NCBI RefSeq assembly: GCF_000189635.1
Contig: NW_002476365.1
Span: forward strand, 558,001 to 622,000
Direction of reading: 5' to 3'
DNA from: Tetrahymena thermophila SB210
Taxonomy: Eukaryota; Ciliophora; Oligohymenophorea; Hymenostomatida; Tetrahymenidae
Length of the DNA: 64,000 nucleotides
Within the stretch, counting starts at the first letter, position 1, and every line of letters starts with the position of its first letter. Position numbers and translations under genes: made by a program. This document shows positions 21,884 through 63,241 of this stretch, in pieces. Under the pieces are notes generated by a model. It was not told where the DNA came from. It was given only the letters and a program-made list of their open reading frames with translations, and searched no databases.

Positions 21884-23836
21884 ATGAACGAATAAAACTA
21901 GGCACTGCAAAATTGTAAAAGAAAAATTCTATTTGCTAATATAACTTTTTATATTTATAAATAGAGTTACAGTTTGAGTATGCTTAGTACAAAGGACTTA
22001 CTGTTCCAGGTTGGACATTTCATTTCTTTTAAATTTTTTAAATATTCTCTTTTTTTAGCATCAAATAAATTAGATTTATATAAAAATTTTAAATTGTTAT
22101 AGCTCCAGAGGAAGGTATTGACTATTTTTAAGAATCTTGCAAATTATACTTGGCAAACATTTTACTAACAAGTTAGGTAATTTTTGATTTTATGCATATA
22201 TATCGCACTTAATTAATATATAATTACCTTGCGAATATTTCTAATAAAATAATTTTTAATTATAAAGCTGAAGGATTTACTATAAGATAAAAATGATTTG
22301 CTTTGCAGAATTTAGAAAGAAGAGGTAAATAATATTTGCATTTAAATGTTTATTTAAGTAGAATTAGGAAATAAAAAGGATTTAAAAACAAATAATGTGG
22401 CTTATTTTAAAGAAATTATTAACGAGAGAAGAAAAGAAAGAGTCAAATTATTTTATTTTTTAAAACCAGTTATAATTTAAAATAATAAAGAAAATAATAT
22501 TTTTATTTATGTTATTTTTCAGAAAAGTTAAAATGATGACTCGAAAGGAGATATTTTAGATGATAAAAAAAGAAGAATAAGAAGATCTGCTTCACAAATA
22601 GATAGACACTATACTTGCCCTAAGTGTGCAAAATCTTATGGGTAAATTGATATTTCTTATAGATCTAAAATTTTATTATTTATTGATTGCTTATAGGTCT
22701 GAAGGTTCTTTATAATAGCATTTGAAGTTAAAGCATCCTGAATTTAACTTAAAAGGTAATTAATTTGTTTTGTTTGTGGAAATTCTTATATGGAAAACAC
22801 TTTTCTGATAGATTATGAATTCAAACCAACTTATAGGATCCCTGGATAAAAATATACTACTGATAGTAAGAGCTTAGAAGATTATGAAGATTACTCTTAG
22901 GATAATAAAGAGCAAAACGAAGATACAGAGAGATAAAAAGAGAATTAAGATGAAACTGCTGAAAAAGCAGAAGAGTCAGCTGCTAAGGAGGAAGCTGAAT
23001 CTGAGTAGTAGCAAAAAGAAAAAACAAAAAAGAGGTAAAAAAAGGAGAGGAGAAAAAGAAAGAAAGAAGCTGAAAAGGAAAAAGAAGCAGAAAATGAAAA
23101 AGAAGCTGAAAATGAATAAGAAAATGTAGAGGAGTAAGAAGTAGAAGTAGAGGAAGAAAAGAAATAAAAAAGAAAGTAAAAGAAAAAAAGGTCCAAGTAA
23201 GTATAGGAAGAAGATTAAGAAGATGTTGATAAAGAGAAAAAGTAAGAAGAAGAGGAGTCTAATAAGCAAGAATCTGAGAAAATAGAAGAGGTTAAACCTA
23301 AAAAACCAAGAAAAAAAAAGAAAAAACCAGAAGTTTAAGTTTAAAAAGAGGAGGAAGAAGAAAAAGGATCTTAATAGTAAGAAGAATAAGCTCAATAAAA
23401 TGAAGCAAATGAAGAAAACCCTCAAAATGAAGATAATCAAGAAAAAGAAAAAAATGATGAAAATAATTTAGAAAATGGTGAAAATAATAATGAAGATAAT
23501 TTAGAAAAAGATAAAAATTAAGATGAAAAAATAATTAATGAAGAAGTTTAAGCTGATAATAATAATGGTAACACTCAAGAAGAGAATAAATAAGAAGATA
23601 AAGATACAGTAGAGCCAAAACATTCAATTGAGAATGATAATTAAGAAAATGCAGCTGAAAACAAAGAAAAGCAAAATAATGAAGACATTGATCAATAAGA
23701 AAAAATTTAAGTAGAAGAGGATTAAAAAAATGACTAATAACAAGATTAAAAAACAGAATTAACAAATGAAAATAAAGATTAAGACATTTCAAACTAAACA
23801 TAAATGTAAATAGAAAATAGTTAAAATGATGAATGA
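21884..23836 (+). CDS. C2H2 zinc-finger protein with long acidic/basic Gln-rich tail
   Basis: Seven exons (21884-21914, 21965-22009, 22103-22176, 22268-22324, 22523-22641, 22697-22755, 22812-23836) join in phase to about 469 aa. Residues about 1-70 contain a helical segment (EEGIDYFQESCKLYLANILL). A basic stretch, DDKKRRIRRSASQIDRHYT, leads into one C2H2 finger, CPKCAKSYG + SEGSLQQHLKLKH, which is split by an intron. The last exon encodes about 340 residues made almost wholly of Glu, Lys, Gln, Asn and Asp, with KPKKPRKKKKKPE resembling a basic nuclear or AT-hook-like patch. It is probably a nuclear nucleic-acid-binding protein. The target is unknown, and a single finger gives weak DNA specificity. 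The purine-rich plus strand leaves long open frames on the complement, which are not genes. Confidence 0.78.
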
Positions 23837-24730
23837 GTTGAGTGAGTGAGATAAATTCCTCCATTTTATGTATATTTAATTTTAATATAAATATAAATCA
23901 ATAATTTGTCAGTTTTAAAAATAAAATAAAATAAATTAATAAATGAAATGTGATTTATATTTATTCGAAAATTGCATGTGTATAATATTATTGGAAAGTT
24001 AAAGTCTTTGTCTAATATAAAATGATTTATTTAATATTAATGTTTGTTATTGAAGTAGTTAAGAATTTAAATTAATTTGCTTTCTTGATTGTTCAAATAG
24101 AAATTGTTTTTTTATGAATAACTTATCATTTTAAACAATCTATTTAGGTAATATTTTTGAACTTGAAAATAATTTATTTATTTATTTACTTATTTATTTA
24201 TCATTCATTTGTTTTGAAATAAAAAAGGCAGATTATTTTAAGAAATTTTTGATTGGCGCTTATTAAATAGATCCAGTTTTATATTTAAATAAATTGAAAA
24301 TATATAGGATTTTATCAAAATTAACTTTTTAATTACGAAGATTGATTCTAAATCGACTGATTTATATATACATATAGACAAAGAAAATAGAAATATTTGA
24401 AGTATTTTAAAGATTATTTAAAATAAATTTTTAAATGATTGAAATGTAGCATAGAGATTTTAAAAGTAGCAAGTTAAAGGTGAAGGGATAATAATTAATA
24501 GCCCTTGAAGGAACTTTTTGATATAACTAATTATTTAACAATATTTTATTATTAAGAAGTATTAAATAGATCAGAACTATTAAATAAATTAATTAATGAA
24601 TGAATAATTAAAATCAAAAAAAGATTCTTAATAATTAGAAAAAAATTAGATTTCACATAATTAAAAAATAAGTATCTATCTATTTATTTATAAACAATAA
24701 ATTAGCTTGATTAATCATTAAGTAGGCGCT
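23837..24730. other. Intergenic spacer upstream of the exportin gene
   Basis: About 0.9 kb between two plus-strand genes: 3' flank of the zinc-finger gene and promoter region of the exportin-like gene. It is AT-rich with short TTTA runs (24176-24203) and no coding signal. Confidence 0.55.
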
Positions 24731-48502: not shown

Positions 48503-51500
48503 ATGGGAATTTTGAAAAAATTAAAAGTCATTTACTAATCTTTGCATTTATAAGATCCAGCTTTAAATAAATAGTTTGTAGAGCAAAGTCACCACAGTGT
48601 AATATTTTAGTTATTATTTTCGCTCATTAAGAAGCATGAAGCATGATTATAAGTCTTATTACATTAATACACTCTAATTCTAAAATCTTATTTTAATAAC
48701 TAACTAATTTACCATAAAAATAACAGCGGATTATCTTCTATTACATTGAAATGGTATTTTAGTGTATAAGATTATCATTCAGTATGAATATGGAATCTCC
48801 TTTGTAATTAGCTTAATTAGTTGGCGGAATTAGCATGAGTTTAGTTTCATTGTTGTTTGCATATTTCTTGTCCTCTAAAAAGTTTTAATACTACTCTGTT
48901 ATTTATAAATTGTCTCATATAGTACTTTACATGTTCAATATGTAGAAGCTTTATAATAATCTTGCATCGATGAAGTAGCTGTAACTGGATCAATCGTTTT
49001 ACTTCTTCATCTTTGGACAGGTAACATTAATTCTAATTAGCTTATTCGTGTAAATAAAAGTAAAAAAAAATAATACAAACAAATTTTCTTAATTAAAAAC
49101 AAATCAAAAAGACAGAGCTTGCAAAATTAATTTAATTAAGTTAACTTATCTGTTCTATAAGCAATTATCTAAAATACTTATGCATTTATTAAATCAAATA
49201 TTATGTTTAATACCAATCAATCAATGGTCAACACTTAAAATACTGTTTGAAAGAATCATTTTTTCTAAATCATAATGAAAAATGTTTAAATATCTGCTTT
49301 AAATAAATTAATAAAAAAATGCGTTTCAGTATTTAGCTGAATTTAAAAAAGAAAGAAAGACATTTTAAGCATTAAATTACTAACAAATAAATAAATTAAT
49401 TTCATTGATAGATAAGATTAATGCACTTAAAGAATAGATTTGTTTTTTTATATTAATTATGTTTTTTAATATTATAAAAAGGTATCTACAATAATATTTC
49501 ATTTGTAGCTTGATTCTTTGTGGCTTGAAATTGTATCCTCTATTGGGTAGGCTATTATAGTTTTAGTTGTTGTAAACTTCGATATTTTTTAAACTAACAT
49601 TATAGTATTTACTTATGTACAATTTAGTATATTCTAAGTTATAAATATTTTCAAATCTCAAAAGAAGTTTCTTCTCAAATTAAATGATAAATCTTGGTTG
49701 AGCATAACTGATTACTTTTACTAGATTCCTATTGTCATCATAAAATTTGATAGCATTACAAATTATATTTCATTAAATGGTAACATCATAAAAATTATTG
49801 AAAATAAATTTAAAAAATCATGCTTTTATTTAATGATATTTAGACTGTAATAAAACATCGGAGAAATTCTTTGACTTTAGAGGAGACGAAAAAGATTCAG
49901 ATAAGCTAAATAAAAAGATGAGTTAATTCATATTAGAAGATATTTTGTAAGCTGATGACTTAAATAATAGCATGATAAAAATGTAATTAAAAAGTCCTAC
50001 TTATAACTATCAAAACAATAATGGTACTAATATTTACTAAAGTCAAAGAGACTTAAAATCATATTTAATAAAAAAAAGTGCCAAAATAATTTTTTAAAAA
50101 GTTTCAAATCCAAAATCATTTGAGGAAGTTAGCAGCGTAGAAATAATATCATGTATGTACAATAATATCTAATACGAAGTGTAGATTCTTCCTGTAATAA
50201 TAGATTTTTAATTAAGTATAGCTCTATAATTTCATCAGTTAGAAAATTAGTCTAGCTTTTTATAAGAAAGGAAGCCTGCTAAAACTTTGGAGAAATCTTA
50301 CTTCAATTTAAATATGACAAATGTGAATGCAATAAACACTCCTACGTAATTCAAAAGTGAATCTATAACTAAATTACCTTTGTTTGTTAGCAGTTACAAA
50401 AAACAAAACCTCAATATCAATGCTTTTGTATAAAATATGAGTGTTTAGAATACTCCTTCGACCAATAAAAATAATATTCCTTAAAATTAAAATATGAATT
50501 CAAGCAATGAAGAAAAAGAAGAAGAATCTGTATTAATTATTAACTTCTACCACAGCATTATATAATTAATGAGTAGAAATATTGATGACCTCATAGCAAT
50601 GATTGAATACGCTCTATAATTTAGCTAGAGCTCTACATTAAAAGTATAAATTTAGAGCTTAAAGCTACTTAAGTAGGAGTAAAAGCTCATTTTTGATGCC
50701 GTTTAGCTGAAGGCTAATTTTATATAAAAATAATTGCATCAATAAAGTCAAAATAATTAAGCTATTAATAGTGCAGGTTCAAACCAATTAGCAGAACTTT
50801 CACCTCCTGTACTACAATACCATTATTTTGACTTTTCTGATATTTCAATATATTTAAAAAATCATCTTTTAATTCATGGTTATGATTACTATTTTAATAT
50901 AAAAAACTTGATTCCTTAAAAATTTTAAATTTACTCCAATAAGGAAATTATTTAGCAAATACTTTAATGTTGCATTTTCTTAATAACGGAGTCCTGTAAG
51001 TTAAAATCTATGCACTAATAATAAAGCAATATGATGAGATCTTTTGCAAGTAATGGGACACCTATTCCATAAAATATAATACAATAAAATGTTAATAACT
51101 TAATAAATACTTTGGGCATGACCTCTTAACAATAATAATAGCAATAGTCAGTTTAATAAGCTTAGACAAATAATTTTCAGCATAAAATGATGACAATAGA
51201 ATTGTCTTAAATTTTAAATTAGAATTAAGTTTCTAATATTTCTGTAAAAATAACTAATATTTAGAATCCAAATATATTAGACAGTTAAAAGCACTCTAAG
51301 CTGGCAACATTCTTTTTTAACGTCCTTAAAACATATCTGGATAAAGTAGGGATTTTGGCTTCTCTACTTTAGAAATAGAATGAAGATAATCTTAGATATA
51401 ATATATGCTTTACAATCTTATCAGACTGCAACAATATTTAAGCACATTAGCAACAGAACAATCAAATTTTATAGCTGTAGAATACAAATACAGGGATAAA

Positions 51501-52050
51501 TCGCTAAACTGTCATGAGTTCATAGTACTATAATAATTCAGGAAGTCCAAAGAATACAATACAATTTAAGGAAGTATTAAGTCCTCACATAGAAAATGGA
51601 ATCCAGCTTTCTAGTTCCAATAAGGGTCGAGATCATAGCAGCGACAACAATCCAAATACTCAAAATAATTCGCAAATGAATTTTCTTATCAACAATAGAA
51701 GCGAAAGCAAATTTTAAATTAACACTTCCCTGAATAATAACTAAAAATTAGAATTTTATAACTTGTAAGAAAAAATTGAAGAGCAAGTTTTAAATGACAC
51801 AGAAGATGACGAAGAACAAAGCGATATTGTTGAACCTGGAAATGAATACTAAAATGATGAGAGTAAATTAGATAAATTAAAATAAACTGTAATCAACAGC
51901 AGTGCTTTAGTTTAAAACGAATTCTCTCATAAAAAAAATTTTATAAAAAATAAATGCACCCAAAATACCCAAAATTTCGACAGCAAACTCAAACTTTAAA
52001 AAATTAAAAATTTGGAATAGCAAAAAAATTACAAATAAACAAATAAATGA
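48503..52050 (+). CDS. Membrane PAS protein with degenerate histidine-kinase-like module (family member 1)
   Basis: Exons 48503-48598, 48727-49020, 49509-49779 and 49844-52050 join in phase to 955 aa. Hydrophobic segments (VGGISMSLVSLLFAYFL, SHIVLYMF, QAIIVLVVVNFDIF and others) place the N-terminal 190 residues in a membrane. A PAS-like domain follows (YFYQIPIVIIKFDSITNYIS), split by a phase-1 intron and closing with EVQILPVIIDFQLSIALQF. A helical segment (INFYHSIIQLMSRNIDDLIA) sits where a DHp domain would be. HATPase-like pieces follow (YYFNIKNLIPQKFQIYSNKE, IIQQILQCCIFLI; later VSNISVKITNI and LATFFFNVLKTYLDKVGILA) without N, G1 or G2 box residues. Long Asn/Gln/Ser inserts and an acidic tail complete it. 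It is probably not an active kinase; a sensor or scaffold role is inferred. Confidence 0.72.
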
Positions 52051-53186
52051 AAAATAAAAATATGAAAAGCAAGTTACTATTCTTATAAAACATCGAAATT
52101 TATTTAAAAATCTTCAAATATCTTTTTTGAGAAGAAACAACCAGCAAAATTAAATGATAAATTTTAAATAAATATTTAAATCTTTTGATGATTTATTAAT
52201 TAAATTACTTTAAATTATGAACAAATAAGCATTGATTAATCTTTGTAATTATTAAATTAAATTTTGTCATGCCTTTTGTTATTAGCGCGTATTACAATTT
52301 AAAAGAATTTGTGACTGATGCTGTATAAATAAGATATGTGACAAATTAATAAAAGTTATATTAATCCTATTAAAAGAAAACTAATAATTTTTTGAAAAGA
52401 GTTAGTTGTCTATTTAAATGTAAAATAGCCCTAAATTAAATTAAATTTTGTATTTAAATTATAAAATTAACTAAAGAAAGCTACTTAATATCCTTACATT
52501 ATGAATATATTTTGTTATAAATAAAAAATATTGTAACTAAATTATTTTATTATTATTTATTTTCGAATTTTTAAAAGAGAAATTTATTTAACAAATCTCT
52601 TAATAAAAAAAATATTAAAAACTTTTCAGCAAAATTAATTTTTTTTAGAAGCGATAATGTAATTAAAAAGTTAAGATAAATAAATTTGATTATTAAAAGA
52701 GAATCAATAAATATTTCATTTATAATTTGAGAAGATAAAAGTATCTGATAAAATTACAATTTTATCTAAGATTATCTTAAGTAATAAAATTGGCATCATT
52801 AAGCTTACACTTTTTATCATTTGTTATAAAACTGTCAAATTCAAAGTTAATAACATAACTTAAATGAATTAAAATTATAGTTATATACGTTACTTCTTAA
52901 TTTATTTATTAATTAATTGTGGTTTTATCAGCAACTTAAATAGAAAACTAAATTCTTAAATTAATTATAATTGAAGGTGTAAATTAAGTATATTTGACAA
53001 AATATCTCAATATTTTAATGGTTAATTTTAGGGTTTAAATGTAATTTAAAAATAGTAAGAATGTATTTAGGAATTTTCTTGTGTGCATGAATTACTTACT
53101 TATATTTTAAGGTTAGTAAGTAATAAATATTATTTGCTTACATCCTTATTTATGTAAAATAAACCAAAAAATATTAAAAGATAAAT
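52051..53186. other. Intergenic spacer
   Basis: About 1.1 kb of AT-rich sequence between two co-oriented paralogous genes. It presumably contains the terminator of the first and promoter of the second. No coding, RNA or clear repeat feature is seen. Confidence 0.55.
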
Positions 53187-56100
53187 ATGAATAGCGTTAA
53201 TTAAATTTATTCTAAGAGACTTTTAATTTAAATTGCTGTTTTAATAAGCGGTTTTGGCAGTATTCATTACTTTCGTAGATACTCTATTTATTATCTCAAT
53301 TTTATGGCAGATTTTCAATTCAAAATAATATACATTACAGTTATTGCTTCTTAGAAAAAGGTAAGTAGGATCAAAAAGGAATTAAATAAGCATAGATTAA
53401 TAAAAAAAATTAATAAGATTCAAGAGATAATCATAAATTAATTAATTAATTAATAATATCCTTCATACAAATTAAAAGAATAATAATAATAATATAAAAT
53501 CTTCAAAAAATAATTAATAGTAAAAGTTTAGAGTATTTAAAGAAAGGTTTATGGTATTAACGATTCAAATATAAGAATGAAATACTATAATACCAAACAC
53601 ATATCCAAATGGACACTAAATTTTAAGAAAGATTATTTAGAAGAGTAATTTCATCAATAGAATAAGACAAAAGTAAAATATTTTAAAAGCACTCTTTTTT
53701 AGGTTCTGACCTTATTATTTGCAATTAATACATTAATAAAATAAACTGAATTCAACATTTTTTAAGAATTTATGGTCAAACCAATAGCCTCTACCAGCCC
53801 AAAAACACTTTTAAAATACAAATATTTGCATAAATGATAGGATTTATGGATAATTATATTATTTTTTTAAGATTAAACTTGGTTTTGGTCAAATTAATTC
53901 TATTGGGCGAACTAAATTAAATACGATTTTTATAAAAAGGACTTCTTCTTCTTTTAAATGATGATTCTCTCTACATTTCTTTGGAGTATTATATCTATTA
54001 CAATAGATGGTATATCTATAAATATGGGAGCATTATTAGGTGTTTTGTTTTTATCTTTCCTAATTATAAGAGTTCCTCATCTTAAATTTTGCTAGTATTA
54101 TATTTTTGTAATTTAGATTTTAGCATGTATAGCTATCCCATACTATAACTTAAGTAATAAGCAGCCATATTGGAGAATCTATCTGAATGGAGCTGTAATT
54201 TAAGCTTTATTTGTCAACTTATCTAATTTAATTTTATATTTATTTATTCATTTATTTTTATGATATAAGTTTAGTAGTATTATTATATTATTATTTGGTT
54301 TAATTTTTCTTTAATTGAGCTTAAAATAATTTTAGTAAGAACGGTTTTTTATTTTTAACAAAAGGCTTCTGTTTTGTGGATGTTTGTAGGATACTAATCA
54401 TTTGTAATGGAAAGCATTTCGATTGCATTTTAAATAATAGCTCCAATTTATATACTTAAAATGCAATATGAATATATTGTAGTACTTGGACTGTTTATGT
54501 TACTGCTTATAACTAGTAGATACATAAACAATCGTAGTTAAAGATTGCTGTTCCTTGCATTGCAAAGTTTTGAGCAATGGTAAGAAGCAATAGAAAAAAC
54601 CGTTCCAACGTATTTTATTGTTTCTCGTTTTGAGTTTATCACTCATCAAATGTATTTACATGGTAAAAATATTATCTAAATTTAAATTTTTATGATAATT
54701 AAAAAGAAAGAAAGAAAGAAAGAAATCTTTTTTTTCCAGTCTCAGCTAATTTAATTTGTTGGTGTTTTTACTAGAAAATTATTTATTTATTACTCACCTA
54801 ATTAATTAAATTATCTATTTTTTTTAATAAAAACTATTTAAAGACTGGTTTTAGCATTACAACTTCTCTTGATTTTAATATTTAGTTGTCTAATGCAACA
54901 ATTTAAATCACTTTCGAATCTAAATTTATTCACTTATCAAAATATTATAAGTTTTTTGATTGAAAATTTTTTTTTTGTTCATTAAAAATAAATTTGATTC
55001 TGGAATTATCTGTTTTAACTTTTTTTTGTTATAATTAATTAGATTAAAATAAGAAATTCTAAAAATTTATGGAAGCCTAATAGAGTACCAAAAAGTTTGG
55101 GTCAAAGAACTCAGAGGATAACAAACTTTATATTGAGTTTCTTAAGAATTGTGAAATAGAGTATGCACCTTCTTAACCGTTTTCGCCTGCATCTGCAGGT
55201 GGTGTCAGGTCTCATGGAAACTCTTATTCAAATAAGAATTCGAATGTTGAGTCAATCCATTCAAACTAAAATTTATATGGATTTGGAACAGGTAAAAATT
55301 AAGTTAATAACAACAATTTATTAAGCTCAGTTCATTTGAAAGTAGGTAATTAGTATACTAACAATACTCCTTCCTCAGCTACATAAGCTATTAATACTTT
55401 GTTTGATCTTTTGTTGAAAAAGCATGACTAGCTATACAATGAAACTACTTAAGCTTAAAATAAAAAAGGAAGAAAATCCTTGCAATTTAATTAAAATAAA
55501 CCAGATGATAAAAAAATAAAAACTAATAACAATGACTTTGCTGCAGCTGCACCAGGCGATTCGAGGAGAAATACCATACTTGCATAAAATTTATTCACTA
55601 ATATCGATGAAAATGGGGTTCAATAAAATTAATTGCTGAAAGAAGAGTAAATCAAAGTGATTTATAAAAGTCCATCTTCTCTATCTATTTAGAAGTTCAA
55701 AGTGAAAATAGTTCCTTTGATTATGCAAGAACCACTTTTAGCTATTAGTTTGTAAGATATCACTTTAAACGAAGAAGAAAAGAAAGTTAAAAAAATAGAA
55801 TAAGATAATAATGCAATAAATCTTTAGGTTATTTCTAAAATAAAATCACACCTCGAGTATTTAAACTAGAATTTATCAAAAGTCAAAAGCCAAAAAATGA
55901 AGCAAGCAATTATCTTTCCTCTGAATATCATTAGGAGTACAGCTGCTATTGAAAAGAATAAGATTACTTATGAATAATTTGGAGTTAACTAGCTATTTAA
56001 AGAACTTGCTAGCACATTTCCTAATCTAGCTTAAGTGAAAGTGAAGAATAACTCTGAAAACTTATAAAACTAAAACACAATTAGTTCTTATTAAAAAAGG

Positions 56101-58800
56101 GAAAATAGCAACAATACTCTCAATCAGAATGCAAATTAAGATGAATAAGAGAAAATGAAGGAGTTTGATTTGATTGACCCTCAGTCATTTGAAGAGCTTG
56201 ATGATTAAGAAATGGTCAAACAGTAGAAAGAGACTATTGCAAAAAAATATAATTTAGCTGGAGTCATATCAGCCAATCATGATTTCCTGTCTTTTTCTCT
56301 CCAAGAAAAACAATTTTATAGATAAAAATCAAATTTATAATCCAGTATGCAGACTTTAGGGGCTGAAAATCTTGCATTAAAGGGCTATGCCAATTTTGTT
56401 GATAGTGAATAAATAATTCCTTATTACAATTTTTAGAAAAAGATAAATTTAACCGAAACAGCTGCTGCCAACAAAGATAAATTTAATTCTTGTTAAAATA
56501 TATATATAGGTTCTTAAATTGATAATGATTTCAATAATACGCAAAGAATACATTAAGAAAATGAATAAAATCACAATACTTCTGCTTAATTTAAAAATTT
56601 TTATAAATCAATAAGTAATGATAATATTGGATCTAAAAAATAGAATAAAATGGTCAATAAATTTAGTCAATAGCATTTACCAAACACTGTTAATACTAGC
56701 CCAGCATTTTAAAAGGTAAATCCTTTGACTCAATCTAAATCCTCAATTTCGTATAAAGTAATTAAATAATAATTAATATCTTAGATTAATAATAATTTAA
56801 AGCAATTTGATGAAAGCTAGCAAAATAATAAGTCTTAAATTGGCTAATTAGAATAGAAAAATAAACTGAATATACCTACATCAGAGGATTTGTAAAAAAG
56901 AGGATTAACTTTGTATACCACAACAACGGGTTTGTCATAACAATAATATGGATCATTCATGCAAACAAAATGTTAAAATTAAATAGAAAAAGAAGACACT
57001 CATGAAGATCTAAATTCAGAAAAGGTCAGCAATAAAATTTAAACTGCTTTTCAAATTAATTAGAATAATTTTAGCACACAAAAAATATTAAGTGATTAAA
57101 ATTTATTGTAACAAAACAATAACATATAAAATGCGAGTGGTGTACAGCTACGTGAAGATAGACACTCTTCTATCGGATAAGTCAGTTCAAACAATTTTCC
57201 AAGTATTAACTAAATAGAGTTTGAAGCAAATTAAAATTTAGTTAAAAAGCACAACTTTAACTAATAAGTCGCCAGTAATAAATTAATTGTTTAGGGTGAT
57301 AACAAAAACTAAGATGCAAGCGTTTTCACTAATTTGCCACATATTAAAACTTCTACATAATTAGAAACTGAGGCTAATGATGTTATGAGCGAAAAAGAAA
57401 AAAAACTAAACACATTATTTAATAACTAATCAAAGAATTCAATAAATTAACCTGAAATTTAAATTCACAGCAATTACAGACTAATATTTTAGGCCTTGTG
57501 TGGGATCATTACTTGCTTTGGCAAGCAAGATGTGCAAATAATTATAGAAAACTATAACAAAAAGCTCTACAATTCTCTGAAATTTACAGTAAAATGTATT
57601 TAAAATGAAAATTAAACAAACAAAAAAACAAATTAAAATAGCGAAAAGAAATAAGAACAAAAATAAATATTTAATTTTGAGAATTCTCCATCAATAAATA
57701 ATTCTCCACAGCAAAATACTTATCAATACTCAATGTTCCCTTCAATAAACACACATACTCATAATCCTCCAAACAGTATTCTCTCACCCTCATCAAACTT
57801 CCAATCAGAAAATAATACTCCTCTTAAGTAGATAACAGTTGGAAAAGTAACTAAATTTAATTTATTATCGACAAATAAAGTTATGAAGGCTGAAGAAGAT
57901 TTCAAAAAGAATTTGTATGACCTAAGTTACTTAAGCAGCAAGCATTTAAGTAATAAAATTTGGAATAGTATTAAAGATATAGCATGCTTATTGGGACCTG
58001 AGAAGTTAGAATATCATGAAAATACTATATCCATAGAATTTTTTACAAATATGAACATTATCAAAAATTAATAAATGAACCCAAACATTCCTTTCTAAAA
58101 TACTAAGCCGAATCGTAACAGCCTTTTCAGTATTTAGCATAATCTACAAAATTAAATGTTTGTAAATAACATTAATTCGCAAACAAATATAAATAACAGT
58201 TAATTTTAGCCAAATAATTCTAACATGACTTATTACACTCCATAACTTAATGTGTAACCTAATTTCTAAGAAAATGTAGCTTAAAGCATAATCAACATCA
58301 ATAATAGCTCTATTGTTTTGGCAAATGTGATTAATAACAATTTAAACATAAATAATATAAATAATGAACCTAATACATCTATTGCTAATGCTTAAAATAT
58401 AAGTAGATTAGATCCTCAAACAGCATCTAACAAAAATAGTTTTAATAATTTATAATAACAACAAAATACCTATGTTTCATTTTAATAATACCTATCATTA
58501 AACAGTAAACATAGTGATTAAAATTACAGACCATCTTCATAGCAAAGCATATAAATCTAAAAATAACCTCAAAAAGTATAAACAATATTTCCAGTCCAAC
58601 AGCAATCCTCTAATTAACCATTTATGGTCAACTCTAAATTGAGAATCCCTGAAGAAGAAGAGTAATCTCCTTATAAAAAGAGATAATATAGTTAAGTCTC
58701 GTTGTCTTTAATGAGTTTATAATCTTAATAGGACGAAGGTATCAATTAAGTATAACCTATAAAAAACTTTCTAAACTAAAACGCTAAATTTAATAACTGA
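53187..58800 (+). CDS. Membrane PAS protein with degenerate histidine-kinase-like module (family member 2, largest)
   Basis: Proposed exons 53187-53360, 53703-53774, 53940-54194, 54365-54662 and 55043-58800 give about 1518 aa; the exon ending at 53774 uses an unusual GTCA donor and is the weakest. About six membrane segments (FLWSIISITIDGISI, MGALLGVLFLSFLIIRV, YIVVLGLFMLLLI) precede a PAS-like domain (EKTVPTYFIVSRFEFITHQM), split by the same phase-1 intron as the neighbour and closing with KFKVKIVPLIMQEPLLAISL. A DHp-like helix follows (VISKIKSHLEYLNQNL). After a huge Asn/Gln/Ser insert come HATPase-like remnants: YRLIFQALCGIITCFGKQDV (N-box Asn replaced), KFTVKCIQ, and KIWNSIKDIACLLGPEKLEY with ENTISIEFFTN. 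The tail is an Asn/Gln-rich disordered region of about 240 residues. Catalysis is unlikely. Confidence 0.7.
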
Positions 58801-58808
58801 TGCTAAAA

Positions 58809-58871
<63 letters not shown>

Positions 58872-59776
58872 ATATAATGAAAAATTTTAATTTAACAAAA
58901 GTGTATATTAATTATTCAAATAAAAATATATTTTTATATATATTCAGGCTTAGATCTTTATATTAACAAAAGTTTTGTTTTTTCTTATTTTAATAAACAA
59001 ACTTTCAACCTGTGTTTAATAAATGATACCTAAAACAAACACTAAATAAATATTTTAAAAATAAAATAAAATATATTTACAACAAAAAACAAAAACAAAA
59101 AATCTGTAATTTTACTTAATTTATAATTAAATTAGTTAAATGATTGTAAAATTAAGTCTCATTAAATAAAATAAGTTTATAAAATATTTAGCTGAACCTG
59201 CATTTGAAATAATTATTATATTAATTTTGAATATTTTTTTCCAATTCTTAATTATTTGCTTGATATTTTATTTTAAAATGTTTACAAAAATTCATCAAAA
59301 TATAGAAAATTTTTTTCAAATATAAATTAATTTATAACAACAAATAAAATGTTAAAATATGAATACTTTACGATAACCTACATTAATTAATAATCAAGTT
59401 AAGTATCATTATTTAAAATAAATTTACAATATTATAATTCAAAAAATTACAAAAGTAATAAAAAACTTTCTTCTTAAAATAGCTATAAAACTAGGTTAGA
59501 TAATAAAAATAAATATCATTTTATAAAAATATCTAAAATTATTTAGTAATTTTGGTGAATTTTAAAAAATATTATTTGTTAAAAATATTTTGTTACTTAT
59601 TTATTAGCTTTTTAATTATTTAAAAACCTTTGTAAATTAATCTATATAAACAAATCAACTAAAAATAATAAATAAATAAATAAATTTTAATGGCAAATAA
59701 AATTAGATAGAAATAATTAGATAATCAACAATGTATTAAAATTTAGATTACAATATAAAATTATTATTTAAATTGT
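58801..59776. other. Spacer between convergent paralogues
   Basis: About 1 kb between the 3' ends of the second and third PAS/kinase-like genes. It begins with a tetranucleotide repeat (listed separately) and is otherwise AT-rich without recognisable features. Confidence 0.55.
58805..58874. repeat. (AAAT)n microsatellite
   Basis: About 17 tandem AAAT/TAAA units begin a few bases after the TGA stop of the preceding gene. Confidence 0.95.
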
Positions 59777-62700
59777 TCAAACTTACTTTTATAAAGTTTT
59801 AAATTTATCTTCATAATTTTTAATTTATTTGATTGAGCTAGTAACACCTTGAATTCCATACTCACCTATGTTTCCAAGCTCTAAATCAAAAGAGCAATCT
59901 TAATCGTCATTTTAATTTTAAGAATTCTTTTTAGTTGAATTATCTTGGTTTAATTAAAATTAGTGCATCTCATAATTTTCTGTAGTTCTAACTTAATTTA
60001 ATCCTTGGATAATTATACCACCGATTTAAGGACTAATAACGTTGCTCTTAAAAATAATATAAAAATATATTAACCAAAAATTCTAATTTTAAAAATTGAA
60101 TATTGTTTAAAATAATTTCTTACGTAGGAAGGAGAATGTTTGTTGGTATAAATTTAATCGACTCCACTATTTTTTAATACCTATTTAGTATTTTTAAAGT
60201 CTGAAGGCTTTACAGAATAACTTTTAACAAAGCTTTCATGCTTTAGGTCATCATCATCAGCAGATCCTATAAATGGATTGTCTCCATTATTTTCGTCGAT
60301 TTCAAATTCATTTTTACTTGTTCCTCTCTAGTTTTAGGCATCTTCAATCTCCTTGAAGGATTTAGCTGGATCACTAAATAACCAAAAAGTACATAAAATC
60401 TAACAATTTTGGCTTTATTCCATTTCCATTTACTTGTTGTGCATAGATTGTAGATATCCAGTTAAATACTAAAACTCAATACTGTTGATTAGCTTGTGAT
60501 TATTTCCATTTAAATACCTAAATGGCTTGCAAAGAGCTTGGTACCAAGTTTAACCATTTTTATAATTTTCATTGTTTCTTTCTTTATAATAGTATACAGA
60601 TTCTTCATCTACTATCATTTGAATAACGAATTCGCCTGTCTTTTCTTCATCTCCATAAATATTTTAAGTGAACTTGAGAACAGTTTTAATATTTTCTAGT
60701 TTTTATAAGTTATAGCAATTTTCAAATAGGTAAATCAAAAATTGTCTAAATTCTTGATGTCCTGTGTTTAGCATGTACTCATCATCTAAGTTAAAAGCTA
60801 TATCGATTTCTTCATTGTATAAGCTTAAGACTTCAAAAACTTCTTACTTCAAATTAAATTGAGTAATTTCAGAACTAACTTCCTCCTCTTCAGGTAGATT
60901 GGCTAAGAGAGATTGTTATATATTTTTTTTTATTTATTAAACTTAGATGTTGTTATCAATGATCACTTATTTTTCATTGCTTCCTTACATCTAATTTAAA
61001 TCCTTACTTTATTTAACTTCTTCTTTTTAAGAAGTTACCAATTTATCTTTTTGATTGCTTATCTATGAATTTTATATATTTATCTAAACATTCTATTCTT
61101 CCACTTTATTTTTTGAATCATTAAAATTTGGATTTTATTATTAAATATTTCCTTCTTTAATCTCCTCTTGCACATAGTATTTTACTACTTTAGCTTAAAA
61201 ATTTAAAGATTAGTTAGTCCTATCCATAATATGATGAATTTATGTTTAATCAGAGGCGTTTTGTATTTGCTTTTGCATTTCTAAATATCTATTTCTATTA
61301 TTCCATAAATATACTTGCAGTAGATGTTGTTACATTTCTACCTTCTCATTTGCTTCACGTAAAGATTCTGGATCAGCTAAGCTCAAAGACAAAGTGAATA
61401 TTTTATCATCAGAATTTATACCTCTCACATTAAACTAATTTAGATAAGTAAATAGTAATTAATTTAAATAAATAAACATTTTTAAACCAAAGAAATTTAT
61501 AAACCATGGTCATAATTATTTTTTTAAAATTGATAAAAAATAATTTTATTTAAAATACAATTTATATTTTATGTATGATGCATGAATGTATTATTGTATT
61601 AGGGTAGATATTACTGAATAGTTAAAGTATCTTAAATTTAATTAATAATAATTTAATAATTGATCAAAATTTGGTTAGAATCTAAAATCTTGAAAAAAAT
61701 GGAAAGTATAAAAAATAAAATAAATTACTTTGTAAATGTAATTCTAAAATTTTACAACACCAACGTAAGATTTAACTTAATCAATATGAAAAGGCCACAT
61801 AGATTTGTCAAAGCATTTAACTAATATAGGCTTTATTGCTCTTCCAGAATTTCTTACAAATTCTTTGAATTGATGGGCAGGACCTTTAATCATATTATCA
61901 ATGACTAAATTATCTAATAAAAAATTTAATGATTCATCGTCAGAAACATTATAAAACTATTCAGATGACTATTTAGATCCTAAATATATACAACAAAATT
62001 ATTGTTTGTATTAAAGTTTTAGAATTTAATTATTATTAACCTTTAAAGGTGAATTTCTTCTCTTTTATATCATAGGAGAAAACTATTAATTGCACAAAAC
62101 TGACTTCCTTAGCTAATTCCTACCAATAATTAGCTAATTAGAGTGATAAGAATGTTTCTCTGTTGTATATATAAGATTGATACTTCAAAAAAATTATTGC
62201 AAACCCAGTGAAAAGTGACAACAAGCCTGTCTCTGCATCAATTCCTTTGAAGATATGTAATAAGAAAAAGCAAAGAATTATAAATAAAGTATCAAAGAGA
62301 GAGTTATGACCTTAAATCCAAAAAGAGATAACTATACCCTAGATATAAAAAGTAAAATAAAATAAAACTAAAAGAAAGTAAATTTGAAATCAAGTTAAAA
62401 TTTTGGGAGTAGAATTCAATTATTAAACTAAGTAAATTAATTTACACATCTTCATCTTATTAAAAAAACAAATGCACAAAATAATTTTTAGAAAAACCCT
62501 TATTTAAAGTATAATTTAATAAATAGTAGCTGATATTATCTTTCATTTTTATTTAGTAGTTTAATTTGTTTCTTTGTATGTATGTATGTTTGTATGTATA
62601 ATTTATTTGTTTATTTGTTTATTTGTTTAGAATATTATTGCAAATATTTAGTCTTAAGTTGAAGTCTTAAAAATTATAAATATCAATAGAAAAATATAAA

Positions 62701-63241
62701 TACCATTCCGTTAAAAAGAATTCTCAATTCACTTTTTTCTTTCGATTCTAAAAAGCAATCTGCTAGCACAAGCATAGTAAATATGCAAGTCCCCCAGTTG
62801 ATTTTTTAGAGATAGGAGAATTTGGAAACCTTTACTATTAGTAAAAAAACTCCGCAAAATACAAAAAAAGCGACTCTTTTTTGGTCATCAAAGGCATTAT
62901 CGATGTTGATTTTAGTAAGCAGCTGCTAAATGAATAAGAAAGCTAATAAAAGTCTTAGACCGTTCTAGTACTATTTTTTATAAGTGAAGTATTTAAAATA
63001 GTGTGACTGTAAATAGATATATATATATATATTATGATGATCTGAGCTATTATTTATTTATTTATTTTTTTACGCTTGGAGTGAAGAAATTTTGATACTC
63101 TAGCTCTAATCCTTCATTTTTAAACTTTTAAGTAATTAAATTGAGTTCACCTTTTTTGTATTTTAGCATCTCAATATTATCACTCAAAAGCTCCTTTTTC
63201 TCATCCTGCTTCAGCTTTTTTAAGCAAGGAATATTTACCAT
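59777..63241 (-). CDS. Membrane PAS protein with degenerate histidine-kinase-like module (family member 3)
   Basis: Exons 63241-63074, 63006-62704, 62338-62041, 61979-61729, 61434-60124 and 60046-59777 join in phase to 866 aa. A charged N-tail is followed by about six hydrophobic segments (LRLLLAFLFIQQLL, VAFFVFCGVFLLIV, LFIILCFFLLHIFKGI, LLSLFTGFAIIFL). A PAS-like domain (VQLIVFSYDIKEKKFTFKG) is split by the same phase-1 intron as in members 1 and 2 and ends GINSDDKIFTLSLSLADPES. A helix with IHHIMDRTNQSLNF sits where the H-box would be. An Asn/Gln insert leads to an ATPase-like part in which the N-box looks best kept (EFRQFLIYLFENCYNLQKL), while G1/G2 boxes (FVIQMIVDEE, SIEFQYLTGYLQSM) are not recognisable. 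The last exons are Asp/Glu- and Asn/Gln-rich. It is convergent with member 2. Confidence 0.74.
62574..62640. repeat. Simple TGTA and TTTG/TTTA repeats inside an intron
   Basis: TGTATGTATGTATGTTTGTATGTA followed by four TTTATTTG-type units, within intron 2 of the minus-strand PAS gene. Confidence 0.85.

Follow-up and report, generated by a model that had tools for sequence, protein, structure and literature searches.

Three adjacent genes in the 64,000-nucleotide stretch of Tetrahymena thermophila SB210 DNA analysed here (contig NW_002476365.1, forward-strand positions 558,001 to 622,000, hereafter the window) probably code for membrane receptors, part of a large ciliate family that arose from histidine kinases of bacterial type, with the catalytic function dead and signalling carried by the binding of partners. 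A wider proposal, which we regard as possible rather than probable, is that a two-component kinase of bacterial type gave rise in a ciliate to a whole class of about 50 receptor genes, losing its catalysis in steps (the histidine first, then the G1-box loop and last the N-box) until signalling proceeded by conformation and binding alone, and that the three genes stand at the end of this path. The three genes are called G1, G2 and G3 below, and the N, G1 and G2 motifs of the ATPase domain are always written as boxes.

The preliminary description of this locus placed two genes in tandem and a third convergent with them, and models made under the ciliate code recover this arrangement. G1 (48503..52050, forward strand) codes for 955 amino acids in four exons (48503-48598, 48727-49020, 49509-49779 and 49844-52050; intron phases 0, 0 and 1). 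G2 (53577..58800, forward strand) codes for 1468 amino acids, also in four exons (53577-53672, 53940-54194, 54365-54662 and 55043-58800), of which the first is echoed in L064, a relative on contig C10. G3 (59777..63241, reverse strand) codes for 852 amino acids in six exons (63241-63074, 62964-62704, 62338-62041, 61979-61729, 61434-60124 and 60046-59777; intron phases 0, 0, 1, 0 and 0). The models are based on open frames, GT..AG ends and agreement among paralogues; GT..AG at every modelled intron was itself a selection criterion, and alternative choices exist for the first introns of G1 and G3 and for the first exon of G2. Under the standard code the window holds no closed open reading frame (ORF) of 200 amino acids, and under table 6 it holds 39 of at least 250; both this code and the base composition suit Tetrahymena. 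With TGA as the only stop, the uncorrected chance per frame of such long open exons is about 9e-6 for G1, 2e-9 for G2 and a modest 1e-3 for G3. The long Asn/Gln/Ser-rich inserts first described are borne out by composition, with these three residues making up 33% of G1, 34% of G2 and 25% of G3. Elsewhere in the window, Rfam and tRNA scans returned nothing, a perfect AAAT microsatellite of 17 copies (58806-58874) directly follows the G2 stop, and the stretch 22790-23864, which has tandem repeats of 9, 18, 21 and 33 bases, strong GC and AT skew and frames open on either strand, is probably a Lys/Glu-rich repeat ORF.

The receptors were placed in their family through the segment that joins the membrane part to the PAS-like domain. 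A TM-PAS profile of 17 rows from outside the trio, 16 of them diverged genes and one the intact kinase L020, matched the stretch from TM6 to the PAS start with E-values of 1.3e-5 in G2, 1.1e-4 in G3 and 1.5e-4 in G1; at E up to 1, the three trio exons were all that it found in the window, in a search of 1670 segments that covered both strands and included relatives. By this segment and the introns that the genes have in common, their membership in a diverged TM-PAS receptor family is established at the level of sequence.

The wider family was gathered from the 101-Mb assembly of 445 contigs. A search with G3 reached two further places, at E 8e-4 and 0.09, the second being L016 on C424, a gene with the same layout as the trio in one open frame. 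L016 in turn gave 25 matches and L059 gave 35, each count including the query itself, and the G2 search, which added places on C10, C262, C200 and C174, had 12 matches outside its own contig at E below 1e-2 (C10:639301 at E 1.7e-14). The family amounts to 55 places, a few of them weak, obtained by merging the matches of the L016 search (all rows, E up to 0.11), the G2 search and the L059 search with the trio; three G2 rows that hit its own other exons, one G2 row at E 7.95 and two L059 rows (E 0.08 and 0.16) were left out, and the places on C377, C174 and C255 have no E-value below 1e-3. Several family places lie in runs on one strand. Six G2 matches on C262 (578270-602040, outside the window) are spaced 3-7 kb apart, with a further one at 300936, and the six are likely a tandem array; seven places occupy C156:370268-433464, some of them about 20 kb apart, and four occupy C78:294482-306901 at intervals of about 4 kb.

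The PAS-like starts (W..I....P...I.KFD in G1) were located with the TM-PAS profile at 49689..49778 in G1 and 54572..54661 in G2, both on the forward strand, and at 62042..62131 in G3 on the reverse strand. Pfam reports no PAS domain in G1 or G3, scanned from the N-terminus to the ATPase-like part, or in the last exon of G2, and profile A3 matched no solved structure, PAS included. The PAS-like domain claimed at the outset consequently lacks a direct Pfam match and draws suggestive support from the family profile. The matching segment of the intact kinase L018 hits PAS_8 weakly, short of the cut-off (E 0.0033), and the family profile of 16 rows aligned with the PAS starts of intact kinases in a sensible register, with a score of 17.4 and a probability of 7%, where the best of 30 column shuffles reached 14.0. 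Single family rows barely differ from shuffles in this comparison, except L020, which is itself in that intact-kinase profile. We therefore regard PAS as the probable label for this segment. Membrane segments do precede it, as first described, and the figure of about six is not clearly recovered by hydropathy: G1, G2 and G3 show 4, 5 and 5 segments at a threshold of 1.2, and 2, 5 and 2 at 1.6.

The phase-1 intron that was said to interrupt the PAS domain at an equivalent point in all three genes is indeed there, at 49780..49843 in G1, 54663..55042 in G2 (both forward strand) and 61980..62040 in G3 (reverse strand), with the junctions TTAAATG/AC, TTACATG/AT and TTTAAAG/GA (a slash marks the intron). 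Two further introns, both of phase 0, agree in position and phase across the trio, one ahead of the first membrane helix and the other ahead of helix 5. L064 has the PAS intron in phase 1 as well, and the bases that follow its acceptor, ATTAAAATAAGAAATTC, are the same as in G2; at the helix-5 intron site it reads open in frame. Ten matches of the G2 search on C10 (exon-3 region), C262 and C200 start at G2 residues 104-121 and end at residues 214-219 in nine cases and at 223 in the other. Exon 3 of G2 comprises residues 118-216, and match ends so close to the exon ends fit conserved introns on these contigs. In contrast to the trio, the PAS intron site is open in the 17 non-trio rows of A1 and in seven further relatives, a sample biased by the fact that matches running through the site are easier to find. 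The PAS intron is thus a mark of the trio and L064, and perhaps of the C262 array.

These introns argue for common descent of the trio and L064, and the phylogeny bears on how the cluster came about. In a tree of 27 TM-PAS segments, G2 groups with L064 (support 100/99), and G1 and G3 form long branches of unsure place. Topology tests, both limited by these long branches, rejected a trio-only clade, and with it simple local duplication (p-AU 0.0154), and did not reject a clade of the trio plus L064 (p-AU 0.248). Local duplication as first proposed accordingly fails, because the nearest relative of G2 lies on C10, shares the PAS intron with it and groups with it in the tree, and because the trio-only clade is rejected. 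From this grouping, this rejection and the introns common to the trio and L064, it follows that the cluster is old or was assembled, and is not a fresh triplication; an older duplication followed by dispersal is possible. The long branches of G1 and G3, together with the loss of kinase motifs, might also suggest that the three genes are decaying pseudogenes. We consider this very improbable, as the exons are open under TGA-only stops, the splice ends are usable, and G2 resembles its C10 relative both in exon 3 (41% identity) and in the PAS-end segment.

Kinase ancestry is clearest among the relatives. Profile A2, built from eight diverged relatives from the PAS start onward, was compared with solved structures and matched 3a0r best (E 6.3e-12) and 7z8n at E 7.4e-12, the latter match spanning DHp and ATPase, with RetS, ZraS, ETR1 and FixL among the further matches. 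At E up to 1, 36 of 39 matched sequences are histidine kinases, or receptors or phytochromes of that kind, and the other three, all with E above 0.06, are Piwi chains. Five of the eight A2 members give a Pfam HATPase_c match at E up to 1, the best at 8.9e-7, and matches below the cut-off of this family come from L016, L043, L039 and L046. On these comparisons the kinase ancestry of the relatives' C-terminal part is firm. The suggestion that a sensor family has drifted away from kinase chemistry is thus upheld at the level of the family, through the A2 matches to solved kinases, HATPase_c in the relatives and the membership of the trio by its TM-PAS segment.

The relatives also show how far the catalytic motifs have gone. 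An H-box pattern is present in 17 of 19 kinase loci and in none of 24 family loci or the three trio proteins, the pattern not being exhaustive (the L025 variant HDLRQP escapes it) and some loci holding only part of the gene. By eye, the Asn of the N-box is kept in 13 of the 14 relatives that have the box in view, L041 having His instead, and a DxGxG-like G1 box is seen in five of 13 (L042, L045, L046, L051 and L059), with two more keeping it partly. L042 (C114:931354) lacks the H-box pattern and by eye keeps the N-box, the G1 box (DSGPG) and the G2 box (GLGIG); it is a candidate ATP-binding receptor without the histidine. Taken together, these losses resemble a stepwise decay that began with the H-box, in an order read by eye rather than reconstructed. 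Among the matches listed, HisKA or HATPase_c lies within 6.5 kb downstream of one of the 55 family places (HATPase_c, on C377), and the same place is the only one with a listed receiver within 9 kb downstream; with 38 of 97 HATPase_c and 50 of 88 receiver candidates scored, these lists are lower bounds. In the genome as a whole there are 65 HisKA matches (all 76 candidates scored) and at least 50 Response_reg matches.

For the trio itself, the C-terminal part is more eroded. By eye, PAS, helix, N-box-like and G2-like segments still follow one another in this order, and the frames are open across the decayed part. A DHp-like helix read by eye in G1 (50527..50616, forward strand) contains a histidine in the motif YHSI (50548-50559), without the usual following acid and TPL, and the regions read as ATPase remnants from their pattern lie at 50827..51426 in G1 and 57466..58056 in G2, both on the forward strand; by eye, the G2 region contains LLGP at the place of the LGP seen in several intact kinases of this genome. 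In G3, on the reverse strand, a stretch at 60700..60867 aligns weakly by profile with the N-box half of the ATPase domain and keeps FENC at the N-box, and the rest of the presumed remnant (60370..60636) shows by eye neither a G1 nor a G2 box. None of the three genes shows the H-box consensus, and the earlier reading that the N, G1 and G2 boxes are gone except for a possible N-box in the third member agrees with what we see, by eye, in each of them.

Profile searches separate G3 from the other two. Its N-box half scored 22.6, 28.0 and 27.7 in hhalign with the group B, A plus B and intact profiles, where the best of the 27 non-trio ORFs in the window reached 17.5, 21.2 and 21.0, and it topped all 25 shuffles with each of these profiles; with the group A profile it scored 18.9, a value reached by two of 25 shuffles. 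A profile of all 29 sequences gave 28.5 for this half and 16.6 for the next control outside G3. The hhalign probabilities for the G3 remnant are 1-17%. By hmmsearch the ATPase part of G3 reached 6.1 bits, and a single control ORF (6.9) and a single shuffle out of 100 (6.8) scored higher; none of the trio was convincing by this method. The G1 remnant beat shuffles with none of four profiles, that of G2 exceeded controls with one of four, over 17 columns, and profiles from intact kinases detected neither convincingly. A Pfam scan up to E 10, in which HMMER filters drop most matches above 0.1, covered G1 and G3 from the N-terminus to the ATPase-like part and the last of the four G2 exons, and found neither HisKA nor HATPase_c there. 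It gave no family at all for G1 or for the G2 exon, and for G3 it gave DUF4369 at E 0.13 and DUF350 at E 2.9, neither of which reached the cut-off. In the segment search, a PAS-end/DHp profile made without the trio missed all three genes; run on the three proteins it gave local domain E-values of 3e-5 for G2 and 8e-3 for G3, with negative whole-sequence scores. Structure prediction from single sequences was of low confidence (mean pLDDT 40.5 for G3 exon 5 and 37.1 for the DHp-ATPase part of G1). Of the ATPase-like remnants once claimed for all three proteins, that of G3 is weakly supported above most controls, and those of G1 and G2 do not consistently rise above them.

One could therefore suppose that the trio keeps the membrane and PAS parts only, with the kinase part replaced by disordered Asn/Gln/Ser-rich sequence and output passing through the PAS domain or the tail. 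The scores of G1 and G2, together with a G2 C-terminal part for which the genome holds no detectable relative, speak for this reading. We nevertheless find it unlikely, given the retained order of segments, the G3 scores with three profiles (27.7-28.5 against 16.6-21.2 for the best of the 27 ORFs), the failure of any of 25 shuffles to reach G3 with either of two shuffled profiles (A plus B, intact), and the fact that relatives still match kinase profiles. From order and pattern, all three genes likely carry ATPase-like remnants, and we infer that their C-terminal parts share the kinase ancestry of the relatives.

If these are indeed catalytically dead receptors, the membrane or PAS part would sense a signal, the DHp-like helices would hold two molecules together as a dimer, and what is left of the ATPase domain, its ATP binding gone, would serve as a docking surface. 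The output would consist of conformation and protein binding. In the simplest case the receptors would bind or titrate the cell's own active histidine kinases or receiver-domain proteins, for which the action of the bacterial pseudo-kinase DivL on a receiver offers a model. G1 may have a phospho-accepting role through the histidine in its DHp-like helix. Extended to working phosphotransfer at an atypical site, in which an active kinase or receiver would pass phosphate in trans to this histidine and make the decayed ATPase part dispensable, the idea gains from the position of the histidine inside the helix and from a genome rich in receivers; with the H-box pattern missing from every family locus and trio protein scored, and by eye no comparable histidine in G2 or G3, we judge it improbable.

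Among plant ethylene receptors, some are known to have lost kinase residues, and dead protein kinases are well-studied regulators. Dead histidine kinases in the literature that we searched are mainly bacterial cases, and that literature contained no description of decayed ciliate histidine-kinase receptors. If the proposed reading is true, a large graded series from intact to fully decayed within one eukaryotic genome could indicate the order in which a two-component sensor loses its chemistry and yet persists, and it would raise the question of what role non-catalytic receptors have where active kinases and receivers abound. The expansion of ciliate kinases is already published: histidine kinases are described as greatly expanded in ciliates, as an atypical family (PMC3341644), and T. 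thermophila as having a family of 48 DhkL-like genes (PMC2636879). The present family has this expansion in common with those accounts, and some of its members may be in their lists; as far as these accounts go, they describe neither a branch without catalytic motifs nor the TM-PAS layout, PMC6944256 contains no ciliate terms, and we found no published account of the decayed branch in the literature searched.

The closest comparison lies in the same genome. Like the trio, the hybrid histidine kinases L020 and L018 have a membrane part and a PAS-like segment followed by DHp and ATPase, and L020 has the TM-PAS segment in common with it. Unlike the trio, L018 has Pfam HisKA, HATPase_c and Response_reg matches, and L020 shows by eye the H-box and the N, G1 and G2 boxes and has a receiver match. 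Among bacterial proteins, the Caulobacter pseudo-histidine kinase DivL is described as carrying PAS domains on a DHp-ATPase core and as working without kinase activity by binding a receiver (PMC4211667). As far as that account goes, DivL has lost the histidine alone and keeps the N, G1, F and G2 boxes, whereas the trio also shows no G1 or G2 box and, unlike DivL, is of the eukaryotic membrane-receptor type.
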